Assembly (NCBI RefSeq): GCF_963664075.1
Contig: NZ_OY760916.1
Coordinates: forward strand, 2,482,001 to 2,546,000
Direction of reading: 5' to 3'
Length of the DNA: 64,000 nucleotides
From: an uncultured Desulfobulbus sp.
GTDB taxonomy: Bacteria > Desulfobacterota > Desulfobulbia > Desulfobulbales > Desulfobulbaceae
Under the pieces are notes generated by a model. The model was not told the DNA's origin and searched no databases. It was given only the letters and a program-made list of their open reading frames with translations. The position numbers and the translations under genes were made by a program. Below, one piece after another: positions 9,368-40,027 of this stretch (positions are counted from its first letter, which is position 1; each line of letters opens with the position of its first letter).

Positions 9368-9524
9368 GCGATCAATTTGAGAGGAAAGCTGAGAACGCAA
9401 ATAACGCAGCATCAGCTTTGCAGTACCTGGACTCAGAGAGTTCTTTTTCCCTTCACTTTTGCCTAGACTCTCTGCACAATACAACAGAGTACACAACTGA
9501 CACTCCAGCAGAAAGGAGCCCTAT

Positions 9525-9908
9525 ATGCTACGCGATCTATCCCTTGCCGCCAAGGCAGCCTGCAGCAAAGAAGATCAGGAAAGTCTGGTCCCAATGGTAA
9601 AAAAATTGCGCGATCTCGGAGAGGTTGCCTTTAAACGTGGCCTGCTTGCCCTTGAAGGTGAGCTCATGCAGCTTGAGGATCCCTTTCTCAAACTGGGCAT
9701 CCAGCTCATTGTTGATAAAACCGAGCCGGAAAACGTGCAGGATATTCTCGACTCCGACATCTATTACAACGAGTCCAACGGTCGGGAACTGCTCAAAAAA
9801 ATTATCATCCGTGAAGGATTACTTCGTATCCAGGCGGGTGACAACGCGCGCAACATTTTAATCTGCACCAAAATTTTTCTCGGAAAGGCAGATGCCAGCC
9901 TTTGGTAG
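9525..9908 (+). CDS. Membraneless MotA-like protein (stator cytoplasmic domain only)
   Basis: This 127-residue soluble protein has a strong ribosome site (GAAAGGAG). Residues 35-80 align without a gap to residues 87-132 of the window's own MotA (38507-39271): about 15 of 46 positions are identical, including ED, F, Q, VD and EP. Residues 86-119 align without a gap to the MotA C-terminal tail (211-244), about 11 of 34 identical, including EG, I, G, N and R. The MotA region carrying pore helices TM3 and TM4 (133-210) is replaced by about five residues, and TM1-TM2 are absent. In known stators this loop contacts FliG. At the position of E. coli MotA E98 it has Glu (E44); at the R90 position it has Phe (F36) flanked by Lys/Arg. 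A role in binding the rotor or stator is an inference. Confidence 0.7.
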   Translation: MLRDLSLAAKAACSKEDQESLVPMVKKLRDLGEVAFKRGLLALEGELMQLEDPFLKLGIQLIVDKTEPENVQDILDSDIYYNESNGRELLKKIIIREGLLRIQAGDNARNILICTKIFLGKADASLW

Positions 9909-9964: not shown

Positions 9965-10234
9965 ATGGCAGGAACAGAAAAAACAAAATTCATTGATCAG
10001 CCTTTTGAAGAGCAAAGTGCAGAAGTGCACAAACGCTTTGAATACCGGGGGGACTCAGGGTGGTACACTGCAAAGGGCGAATTTGCCGGAGCCAATGAAA
10101 AAGATGTGATCGCTGCCCTGATCGACTTTGAAGAGGCAGAAATTAATTCCATTGGAGATTGCATGGGAGGAATCTGCGTCATTCAACCCAAATTCGAAGA
10201 CTTTGTACGCAAACCATTCAGACGTTACGAGTAA
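9965..10234 (+). CDS. Small acidic protein of unknown function
   Basis: This 89-residue protein starts at the ATG at 9965, which sits seven bases after a perfect AAGGAGG; an in-frame ATG at 9902 overlaps the preceding gene and lacks such a site. The sequence is soluble, with a central acidic helix (LIDFEEAEI), a short CMGGIC stretch and a basic end (RKPFRRYE). I do not recognise the family. It follows the MotA-like gene by 56 bases and precedes a palindromic element and a strong terminator, so the two genes probably share a transcript. Confidence 0.65.
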   Translation: MAGTEKTKFIDQPFEEQSAEVHKRFEYRGDSGWYTAKGEFAGANEKDVIAALIDFEEAEINSIGDCMGGICVIQPKFEDFVRKPFRRYE

Positions 10235-28845: not shown

Positions 28846-29862
28846 ATGGCCTCAACTGAAAAATTATCCGGTTTGAAAAAGGCCGCCATTCTGCTGATTA
28901 TTTTAGGGGAACGGTTGGCCACCAAGTTGCTTGCTGAACTCTCGGATGAAGAAATCTTTCGAGTTACCCGTTGCATGGCTGAGATAGACCATATTCCCGA
29001 GGAGACAAAACTCAGAGTCCTCGAAGATTTCGAACTCGCTGCCGAAAGTCAGGCCGGTATTGTAGTTAAAGGTCAGGAGTTTGCAAAAAAATTGATTGCT
29101 GGCTCTTCCAGTGACAAGGATCGAGAATCCGCTCTGATGCGCCAGTTTGTCTCTGGCACTGAAGCTCGTCCCCTTGAAACCATTGCCAAGATGCACCCCT
29201 CTATGGTTGCAGGGCTCCTTGAACGGGAACATCCGCAAACCCTGGCCCTTGTTCTCTCCACCCAGGCAACCGAGCATGCGGGTGCCATTATCGCCAAACT
29301 TCCTGAGGAAAAACGCTCCGATGTCGTTTATCGCATCGCTACACTTGATGCCGTATCCCCCGCAGTTATCGACAGGATTGAAGAAGCTTTAAGCAAGGAA
29401 ATCGGTATTGTCGTTGGTGGAGAGGAACAAAAAGAGGTCGGTGGCCTGAACAAGGTTGTCGAGATCCTTGATAACATGACCGACAATCTGGATGCGGAAA
29501 TCCTTGAGAATCTTGAAGAGATCGATCCGGAAATGGTTGAGAGCATCCGGAAGATGATGTTCACCTTTGAGGACCTCTGCGCCCTTGATGGTCGTTCTAT
29601 CCAGATGATCCTGCGCGAAGTTAACAACGACTCTCTGACAATGGCATTAAAAACCGCCTCTGATGAGATCAAAGAAAAAATCTTTGCCAATATGTCTTCT
29701 CGTGCTGCAGATATGATCCGTGATGACCTGGGAGCCATGGGGCCGGTTCGACTCTCCGAGGTCGAGGCCATGCAGCAGACTATCGTTAAAATTGCGATGA
29801 AACTTGAGGAAGAGGGTAAACTGGTTCTGGGTAGAGGTACTGGCGGCGATGAGTTCGTCTAA
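28846..29862 (+). CDS. fliG: Flagellar rotor switch protein FliG
   Basis: This 338-residue C-ring protein couples stator force to rotation. It has the middle-domain motif EHPQTLALVLS, and the C-terminal torque helix region starting LDGRSIQMILREVNNDSL, with the charged residues that face MotA. It ends in frame overlap with fliH. The stators encoded downstream (motA, motB) and the MotA-like soluble protein at 9525 are its likely contacts. Confidence 0.97.
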   Translation: MASTEKLSGLKKAAILLIILGERLATKLLAELSDEEIFRVTRCMAEIDHIPEETKLRVLEDFELAAESQAGIVVKGQEFAKKLIAGSSSDKDRESALMRQFVSGTEARPLETIAKMHPSMVAGLLEREHPQTLALVLSTQATEHAGAIIAKLPEEKRSDVVYRIATLDAVSPAVIDRIEEALSKEIGIVVGGEEQKEVGGLNKVVEILDNMTDNLDAEILENLEEIDPEMVESIRKMMFTFEDLCALDGRSIQMILREVNNDSLTMALKTASDEIKEKIFANMSSRAADMIRDDLGAMGPVRLSEVEAMQQTIVKIAMKLEEEGKLVLGRGTGGDEFV

Positions 29863-38506: not shown

Positions 38507-39271
38507 GTGGATATAGCAACCCTCATAGGTATCGTACTGGCCTTTGGCCTTATGCTGTGGGCCATTCTCATGGGTGGCCCCCTGACGATCTTTATCGATC
38601 CCCCATCCATTGCCGTTGTTTTTGGTGGCACCCTAGGCGTCTCCCTGATCAACTTTCCATTGGCCGATGTCCTGGGGATGATAGCCATCTTTAAGAAGAC
38701 CGTACTCATCAAAGAGCAGGACACCAACAAATTGATAGCACAAATGCTTGAATTTGCAAATAAAGCTCGCAAAGGCGGCATTCTTTCACTGCAAGATCAG
38801 ATCGACTCCATTGAAGACCAGTTCATGGTCAAAGCCTTGCAGATGGCGGTGGATGGTCAGGAACCTGCCGAACTTAAAGCCATGCTTCTCAATGAAATTG
38901 ACAACATAGCTGCCCGTCACAACAACGGTGCCTCAATCTTAGATACCATGGGTGCCATCGCTCCTGCCATGGGCATGGTTGGAACCCTGATCGGATTGGT
39001 GCAAATGCTCCAAAACATGGATGATCCGGCAGCCATTGGACCTGCCATGGCGGTTGCTCTTTTAACCACTTTTTACGGAGCGGTCCTGGCCAATATTCTC
39101 TTTATTCCCATGGCAGGAAAACTTAAAACCCGCTCCAAGGTAGAAATCCTGCAAAAAACAGTGATCACAGAAGGCATGGAGTCAATTCTCTCCGGTGAGA
39201 ATCCGCGCATCATGGAGCAACGTCTTCACGCGTATCTAGCCCCGAAAAAACGCGAGTCTGTTTTCAACTAA
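38507..39271 (+). CDS. motA: Flagellar stator protein MotA
   Basis: This 254-residue inner-membrane stator subunit starts at GTG, with AAGGAAG upstream. It has four membrane helices (about 3-22, 33-50, 148-170, 182-204), the cytoplasmic loop with R88 at the E. coli R90 position but Gln96 where E. coli has E98, and prolines P153 and P201 at the pore helices. It forms the ion channel with MotB (next gene, 12 bases on), probably using protons. Transcription appears separate from flgE and driven by sigma-54. Confidence 0.96.
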   Translation: MDIATLIGIVLAFGLMLWAILMGGPLTIFIDPPSIAVVFGGTLGVSLINFPLADVLGMIAIFKKTVLIKEQDTNKLIAQMLEFANKARKGGILSLQDQIDSIEDQFMVKALQMAVDGQEPAELKAMLLNEIDNIAARHNNGASILDTMGAIAPAMGMVGTLIGLVQMLQNMDDPAAIGPAMAVALLTTFYGAVLANILFIPMAGKLKTRSKVEILQKTVITEGMESILSGENPRIMEQRLHAYLAPKKRESVFN

Positions 39272-39283
39272 GGAGGATCAATT

Positions 39284-40027
39284 ATGGCGAAATGTCCAGA
39301 ATGCCCTCCCGCCGGCTTACCGATGTGGATGGCCACGTATAGTGACCTTGTAACTCTTCTGCTCACGTTCTTCGTGCTTCTTCTCACCATGGCCTCCATG
39401 GATCCCATCAAATTTGTCCAGGCAAAGAGTTCGATTGAATCTGCCTTTGGCTGGAGTACCACTGCGGCTCCTGTTCCCTTTGCCATCCCATTAATCGAAT
39501 CACCGCCTAAAGCTGAATTTACTCCCCTGCCCCAACAAACACCTATTCAACATTTCAAAAAGATCAAAACCGATCTAAAAATGACCCAAATTGATAAACA
39601 GGTCGAGTTTGTACAGAAGGATAACGACTCTATTATTCTCAGGATCGACGACAAGGTTCTTTTTGCTCCAGGACAAACCGAGCTCAACCCGCTTGCCTAT
39701 CCGATTTTACGCAAGGTGGCTGATATCATCCGCCCCCTCCCTATGACTATACGTATAGAAGGCCACACTGATCCCACTCCTATTGCTGGCAAACGAACGA
39801 ACTGGGACCTCTCTGTAGCCCGTGCGGTCTCGGTCATGGGCTTTTATCAACGGGATAAACTTTTTTCCTTAGATCGTATGTCTGCTGCTGGTTACGGAGC
39901 CACCAAGCCGATTGTCCCCAACACCACCTCTGAAAATATGGCGAAAAATAGGCGAGTCGATTTTATCATTCGCAGCAATAGGCCCGTGAAGCAGGAAGGC
40001 AAGCCCATCACACCAATTCCATTTTAA
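39284..40027 (+). CDS. motB: Flagellar stator protein MotB
   Basis: This 247-residue partner of MotA has a cysteine-bearing N-terminus (CPECPP), one membrane helix with the ion-binding Asp in TYSDLVTLLLTFFVL (D21), and a C-terminal OmpA-type peptidoglycan-binding domain (IRIEGHTDPTPI, then NWDLSVARAVSVMGF). The ribosome site AAGGAGG is strong. Confidence 0.96.
   Translation: MAKCPECPPAGLPMWMATYSDLVTLLLTFFVLLLTMASMDPIKFVQAKSSIESAFGWSTTAAPVPFAIPLIESPPKAEFTPLPQQTPIQHFKKIKTDLKMTQIDKQVEFVQKDNDSIILRIDDKVLFAPGQTELNPLAYPILRKVADIIRPLPMTIRIEGHTDPTPIAGKRTNWDLSVARAVSVMGFYQRDKLFSLDRMSAAGYGATKPIVPNTTSENMAKNRRVDFIIRSNRPVKQEGKPITPIPF

Follow-up and report, generated by a model that had tools for sequence, protein, structure and literature searches.

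Stator A subunits are described as membrane proteins. A short open reading frame in DNA from an uncultured Desulfobulbus sp. raises the question of whether the cytoplasmic part of such a subunit can be kept as a gene of its own, free of the membrane helices, and what role its product would have. The stretch analysed (the window, 64,000 nucleotides) carries this gene on the forward strand at 9525..9908; it starts with ATG and encodes 127 residues, and its translation is matched to MotA in NCBIfam, PDB, hhalign and fold comparisons. The gene is located 19 kb upstream of fliG (28846..29862, forward strand; translation and FliG_C match at G000:C1:2511506-2511829) and 29 kb upstream of a full-length motA (38507..39271, forward strand; translation and match at G000:C1:2520726-2520899), which is adjoined by motB (39284..40027, forward strand; named from sequence reading alone, with an N-terminal transmembrane helix and an OmpA-like end). 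The distance to fliG is about 20 kb in G014, and the two genes are far apart in G070, G077 and G240.

The MotA cytoplasmic domain and its missing membrane part

The window protein was used as query against 84,980 species genomes, a scan that reaches close relatives only, and 47 loci were found, two of them partial (L081, a fragment, and L078, cut by a contig end). Their titles are mostly Desulfobulbus, Desulfobulbaceae, Desulfocapsa/Desulfocapsaceae, Desulfopila and similar, together with one Desulfoarculaceae, one Desulfobacterales and several given just as Proteobacteria, delta proteobacterium or uncultured bacterium. The family alignment used below has 39 rows, the window protein and 38 of the 47 loci, the nine omitted being near copies, partial loci and the L081 fragment; the 38 relatives are 66-95% identical to the window protein. 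The copy in Desulfobulbus rhabdoformis DSM 8777 has 95% identity.

The initial annotation had aligned residues 35-80 with residues 87-132 of the window MotA and residues 86-119 with its residues 211-244, both gap-free, and a recount by eye agrees with it (15/46 and 11/34 identical). Profile searches place the protein with MotA as well: the NCBIfam models MotP and MotA are matched at 9.9e-16 and 3.7e-14, and each of the 39 aligned family members has matches to five MotA/PomA/MotP models. MotA chains in the PDB are matched at 1.6e-8 by the single protein and at 1.3e-11 by the family profile, and the window MotA, used as query, recovers the family member in 47/47 loci (E 5.5e-9 to 7.9e-4). The Pfam family MotA_ExbB is not reached at its cut-off: the window protein scores 14.2 bits against a gathering score of 22.9, and 13/39 members match at E 0.1 or better (best 0.0094). 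The fold predicted for the single chain matches MotA in VIA-align. Chance similarity to MotA is ruled out by the PDB, fold and hhalign matches together with the recovery of the loci by the MotA query.

The hhalign comparison with a profile of 67 MotA proteins of the order reveals how the two MotA parts are connected. One continuous alignment covers query residues 21-120 (probability 98.5, E 3.2e-15), in which residues 84 and 85 are contiguous while 73 template residues, corresponding to residues 137-209 of the window MotA (TM3-TM4), are skipped. The join (9774..9779, forward strand) is thus spanned by a single alignment and is essentially direct, and not a replacement of TM3-TM4 by about five residues as had been proposed. 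In the predicted model, helices are formed by residues 68-81 and 86-104, and the join is the turn of a helical hairpin.

Residues 1-84 (9525..9776, forward strand) are the counterpart of the MotA cytoplasmic loop and cover the stretch after TM2, H1-H3 and the cytoplasmic stub of TM3. The local hhalign match to this part is over residues 21-84; in global mode, residues 1-34 can be aligned to the MotA stretch after TM2, and the structural match in VIA-align begins at residue 11-20. Residues 85-127 (9777..9905, forward strand) are the counterpart of the MotA tail, comprising the TM4 stub and H4, as indicated by the structural match and by an HMM built from 66 MotA tails, which matches 39/39 members at E 4.8e-5 to 1.3, starting at residue 87 in 37 members and at residue 89 in two. 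Taken alone, this tail match is weak: the best true control, drawn from 2,261 neighbouring ORFs, reaches 0.013, which 22/39 members surpass and 17/39 do not. A further control at 0.014 is a longer frame of the family member L054, and the best of 780 shuffles reaches 0.47.

The absence of the pore helices, as annotated, is borne out both by the deletion of TM3-TM4 in the alignment and by hydropathy, which yields no transmembrane segment: the highest 19-residue value is 0.76 in the window protein and 0.51-1.35 over the 39 rows, compared with 2.57 in the window MotA. It is virtually certain that the protein is homologous to MotA and lacks its membrane part, and with the homology, the fold matches and the absence of a transmembrane segment, the annotation as a soluble MotA cytoplasmic domain holds. 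The cytoplasmic torque-generating helix bundle of a MotA-type stator A subunit is present, and the protein is this bundle in isolation, with the TM3 and TM4 stubs closed by a short hairpin. It resembles MotA, PomA and MotP in the bundle (H1-H4 and the two stubs), by sequence and predicted fold. However, it is not a MotA, because the membrane helices, the Pfam score, an adjacent motB and one essential charge are missing; having no transmembrane helices, it forms no pore and no anchored ring.

A comparable protein may exist in Leptospira. LIC10244 is marked CY, as a hypothetical protein, in a table of a published study (PMC8638967), and its family, NCBIfam NF047717, is twice as long (252 residues) as the MotA-like protein. 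Residues 12-104 of the window protein align to profile positions 11-104 across the TM3-TM4 join (E 1.6e-7), and 22/39 members match at 1e-5 or better (best E 3.4e-10), whereas the curated cut-off of the model lies far higher (31 bits for the window protein vs 475). With 93 residues aligned to 94 profile positions straight across the join, the first half of LIC10244 seems to lack the same helices, and the family may be a second, longer MotA without transmembrane segments. A search for the LIC10244 family in 148 genomes of the phylum gave nothing at 1e-6, and the control genomes were likewise silent.

Conservation, distribution and genomic context

The gene has the properties of a functional coding sequence. 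The start codon is ATG in 45/45 cases (the window and 44 loci), and the ribosome site of its own that had been noted is confirmed: AAAGGAG precedes the ATG in the window (9512..9518, forward strand), and Shine-Dalgarno-like 4-mers are found at 36/45 starts compared with 8/45 in a control slot. The dN/dS ratio is 0.034-0.043 in the four pairs that yielded values, one of them with a dS of 2.0, and two more pairs are saturated. In a tree of 102 MotA-type rows, 12 family representatives form one clade (SH-aLRT 100) that branches outside the main MotA clade of the order and has a stem length of 3.68 changes per column; this is a quick tree of 125 columns in which long branches are flagged and 12 of the 39 family rows are used. 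The family is under strong purifying selection and is a single clade, and the view that the gene is not a decayed motA is sustained by the dN/dS of about 0.04, the low entropy over the 39 rows and the single clade. The gene family also exists outside the window genome, with 47 conserved loci among which damaged copies are exceptional. In the alignment, Cys13 is invariant and Cys114 nearly so.

Two damaged copies were encountered. At G190:C1:3462984-3463366, in a single-contig genome, the family member is split over two frames, a frameshift by decay or sequencing error. In Desulfobulbus alkaliphilus, L081 (5929-6153) encodes a C-terminal fragment that is about 73% identical over residues 83-122 and follows immediately after a large gene; with L039 as the intact copy, it has the appearance of a duplicate in decay.

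Among 242 genomes of the order, the gene is present in 48, in families f1 and f12 only, a count that includes the split copy of G190 and a partial copy at a contig end in G005. FliG_C is found in 178/242 genomes and in 46 of the 48 that bear the gene; the other two are the assemblies G020 and G197, which are 56% and 84% complete. The association between the gene and FliG is significant over the 242 genomes when phylogeny is ignored (Fisher p = 3e-5), and similarly in near-complete genomes, where the gene occurs in 36/114 FliG-positive and 0/34 FliG-negative genomes (p = 2e-5, phylogeny again ignored). The results support a distribution of the gene that follows the flagellum. The gene is nevertheless not a core part of the motor, because 132 of the 178 FliG-positive genomes lack it. 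A survey of 395 genomes of the phylum gave 16 with a match at E 1e-12, a limit that would miss more diverged forms without transmembrane segments. Three of these are family members, again in families f1 and f12 (G000, G054 and G063), and the remaining 13 match only in part, within residues 8-91, the open frames concerned being 222-270 residues long, as expected of MotA. Carriage by phages or viruses was considered and rejected: no relative was found on viral contigs, and the four phage and ten plasmid records that match cover at most 62% of the protein at less than 60% identity, several of the plasmid matches being annotated as flagellar motor or MotA/TolQ/ExbB proteins.

The neighbourhood of the gene was compared over the window and 46 loci, 25 of the 46 with full flanks. 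When ORFs in alternative frames of the gene are discounted, each group of neighbours is shared by at most 10/47 loci; the recurring ones resemble malic enzyme, cytochrome bd, radical SAM and AAA ATPase genes, named from their sequence starts. With the window MotA and FliG as queries, no further match turns up alongside the gene in the 47 loci, and a phmmer search of the ORFs of these loci with the window MotB gives no clear match to an adjacent B-subunit gene, the only MotB-like matches being weak and in long ORFs (L073, 2.3e-4; L056, 8.4e-4). The small gene that follows in the window (9965..10234, forward strand; ORF and genome survey) encodes 89 residues of no known family and had been taken for a partner. 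It adjoins the MotA-like gene in 10/10 surveyed genomes that have both, but it is conserved only in part of the clade and is facultative: relatives occur in 15/242 genomes, five of which lack the MotA-like gene, including G003, which also lacks FliG. The 89-residue family has no convincing Pfam match and shows conserved VIAALIDLEEAEIN and GDCM motifs; the predicted model is poor (pLDDT 72.6).

Flagellar promoter signals are only slightly above background. Over 46 upstream regions, the best consensus scores average 7.89 of 12 for sigma-28 and 6.93 of 10 for sigma-54, compared with 7.59 and 6.70 in random windows of the same loci and 7.50 and 6.70 on the reverse strand; sigma-54 scores of at least 7 are found in 38/46 upstream regions and in 101/230 mononucleotide shuffles. 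An 11/12 sigma-28-like match is present about 200 bases upstream of 6001 in L039, and a GCCGATAA box upstream in L057; neither is general in the family.

FliG-contact residues and the pattern of constraint

PomA grips the FliG torque helix with two faces, a positive one formed by R88, K89 and R232 of one subunit and a negative one formed by E96 and D114 of the neighbouring subunit (PMC10374538). In the complex from C. sporogenes, bound FliG has been observed only where two MotA heads stand close together as a pair (PMC11302681). The PomA contact sites were mapped onto the family through the PDB/PomA alignment of its profile. Four of the five charges are kept, as in MotA, PomA and MotP: K37, E44, D64 and R109, the equivalents of K89, E96, D114 and R232, are present in 39/39 members. 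The fifth is not: the equivalent of R88 is lost, unlike in these proteins. Position 36 is K in 13 members, F in 9, T in 8, S in 4, G in 2 and C, Q or A in one each, with no arginine in any of the 39, whereas the corresponding arginine is essential in PomA and is present in 67/67 MotA proteins of the order (rows matching at E 1e-10 or better in selected fetched stretches, one of which lacks the R232 site). A free head therefore has at most half a grip on FliG. The four charges that are kept belong to the general signature of MotA as well and may have a structural role.

The most fixed parts of the family are elsewhere. Mean entropy is 0.23 bits over residues 73-98, where 12 of 26 columns are invariant, and 0.46 bits over residues 1-19, whereas H1 (1.37) and H3 (0.92) are the least fixed helices, with H2 at 0.78 and H4 at 0.71. 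In 52 MotA rows, those with a GILSLQ or GILALQ motif, the values are 0.60, 0.63, 0.51 and 0.15 for H1-H4 and 1.29 for the counterpart of residues 1-19, a comparison that concerns patterns and not rates, since neither the species nor the number of rows is the same for the family and for MotA. Entropy in the TM3 stub is similar (0.74 in the family, 0.77 in MotA), and the TM4 stub is at 0.18 in the family and 0.63 in MotA. Relative to MotA, constraint is shifted towards the former membrane end; with 11/19 invariant columns in the MotA TM4 stub against 9/19 in the family, that stub is itself well conserved in MotA, so the constraint at this end is only partly new. In helix 86-104, 16 of 19 positions are at least 90% identical, on all sides and beyond the need of a helix core, which suggests that the end that formerly met the membrane serves as a binding surface in the family. 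This pattern speaks against a simple FliG decoy. The surface with which a decoy would compete is the less constrained one, conservation being lowest among the helices in H1 and H3 even though key charges on them are fixed; R88 is lost, and the strongest constraint is located at the other end.

The genus of the window carries at least three MotA types, with site patterns such as NRKQDR, ARKEDR and IRxQDT (MotA-type loci L120, L187 and L188 of G009, and L161, L162 and L177-L186); the third type, without an R232 equivalent, also occurs in G017, which is 76% complete and has no FliG match. A tie to one stator type is rejected, since the gene occurs with more than one MotA type. PomA needs a glutamate at the E96 site for motility. 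At this site Q is found in 56/67 MotA proteins of the order and E in 39/39 members of the soluble family; a tie of the gene to E or Q there is likewise rejected (Q in 30/34 vs 26/33 MotA rows). No phylogeny-independent change in FliG or MotA accompanies the gene: FliG M298, present in 39/39 rows with the gene and 17/31 without it, corresponds to two changes on the tree and has no independent support. Replacement of a YcgR-type PilZNR protein gives no inverse pattern, the relation being in the positive direction (17/48 vs 34/194, p 0.01); in flagellated f12 genomes the comparison is 16/33 vs 9/30 (p 0.20).

Possible roles at or away from the motor

The MotA-like protein is probably a soluble regulator or adaptor at the motor. 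The specific form tentatively put forward here, given a chance somewhat short of even, is a soluble, torque-incompetent mimic of the stator, or an adaptor, at the flagellar motor of flagellated Desulfobulbales. Its tip would dock, weakly or conditionally, on the C-terminal domain of FliG or between MotA subunits, and the conserved hairpin end, now facing the cytoplasm rather than the membrane, would bind another protein; in this way the engagement of stators could be restricted, or a further signal linked to the motor. A MotA fold with no transmembrane segment, a real gene conserved as one clade, the occurrence with FliG and the four fixed contact charges are consistent with this role, as is constraint that is strongest at residues 73-98 and 1-19. 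Against this role, the charges belong to the general MotA signature, the association with FliG is uncorrected for phylogeny, the TM4 stub is conserved in MotA too, so that constraint there is partly old, and most FliG-positive genomes do without the gene. Moreover, no neighbour is conserved family-wide, with motA, motB and fliG not alongside (apart from the two weak MotB-like matches), promoter scores barely exceed the controls, and the gene accompanies several stator types with no independent change in FliG or MotA.

Part of this pattern would suit a MotA bundle repurposed off the motor, the hairpin end and the N-terminal helix of which bind a partner outside the rotor-stator interface. The looser constraint on H1 and H3 than in MotA, alongside fixed residues 1-19 and 73-98, the loss of the essential arginine at position 36 throughout the family, the long stem branch, the many flagellated relatives that lack the gene and the absence of MotA and FliG genes beside it all point this way, whereas a distribution that follows FliG and the invariance of K37, E44, D64 and R109 speak against it. 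A repurposed head, if on the whole unlikely, is a serious rival to the mimic or adaptor; a factor on the MotA side is less so.

Such a stator-side factor would bind MotA itself and aid assembly or hold idle stators, for instance by sitting between the cytoplasmic domains of the pentamer, which are loosely spaced, or by attaching to the helix of an adjacent subunit that is nearest the membrane. In PomA, the C-terminal helix is packed against the CI helix of the subunit next to it (PMC10374538), and this CI helix appears to correspond to residues 1-19, which are fixed in the family; in addition, the acidic E44 and D64 are kept by the family and the arginine by 67/67 MotA proteins of the order. 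Against these stand the occurrence with different MotA types and the location away from motAB, and the proposal is judged improbable. A decaying or chimeric, functionless motA fragment, to which the split copy in G190 and the second, C-terminal fragment in D. alkaliphilus might point, deserves next to no credence in view of the dN/dS, the low entropy of residues 73-98, with 12 of 26 columns invariant, and the separate clade on its long stem, and for the window copy it is refuted by conservation and dN/dS.

The mimic or adaptor at the motor may be compared with YcgR, the c-di-GMP flagellar brake, which is soluble and is reported to interact in vitro with FliG and the MotA cytoplasmic domain (PMC10140304). 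The MotA-like protein is likewise soluble, but a Pfam search with the window protein, taken to E 10, gives neither PilZ nor YcgR. A more daring version, considered rather unlikely, is a detached stator head, long kept free, that docks on the rotor without producing torque and tethers a protein or signal through its new end. If true, the motor would have an inbuilt competitor or clutch derived from its own stator.

In a 2025 survey of how MotAB evolved, one feature given for flagellar A subunits is a membrane fold of four helices, and neither "soluble" nor "truncated" appears in the main text (PMC12505986). In the open-access literature, searched by title and the start of the abstract, no paper on a soluble, truncated or paralogous MotA was found among the matches listed. 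All members of the family found to date come from one group of bacteria, most of them sulfate reducers. As a conserved soluble relative of the stator subunit, the family would demonstrate a use of the torque-generating head without the channel. The MotA-like protein is a small natural handle on the rotor-stator contact, minus one essential charge, and could help to test how FliG is gripped and how the motor is throttled.
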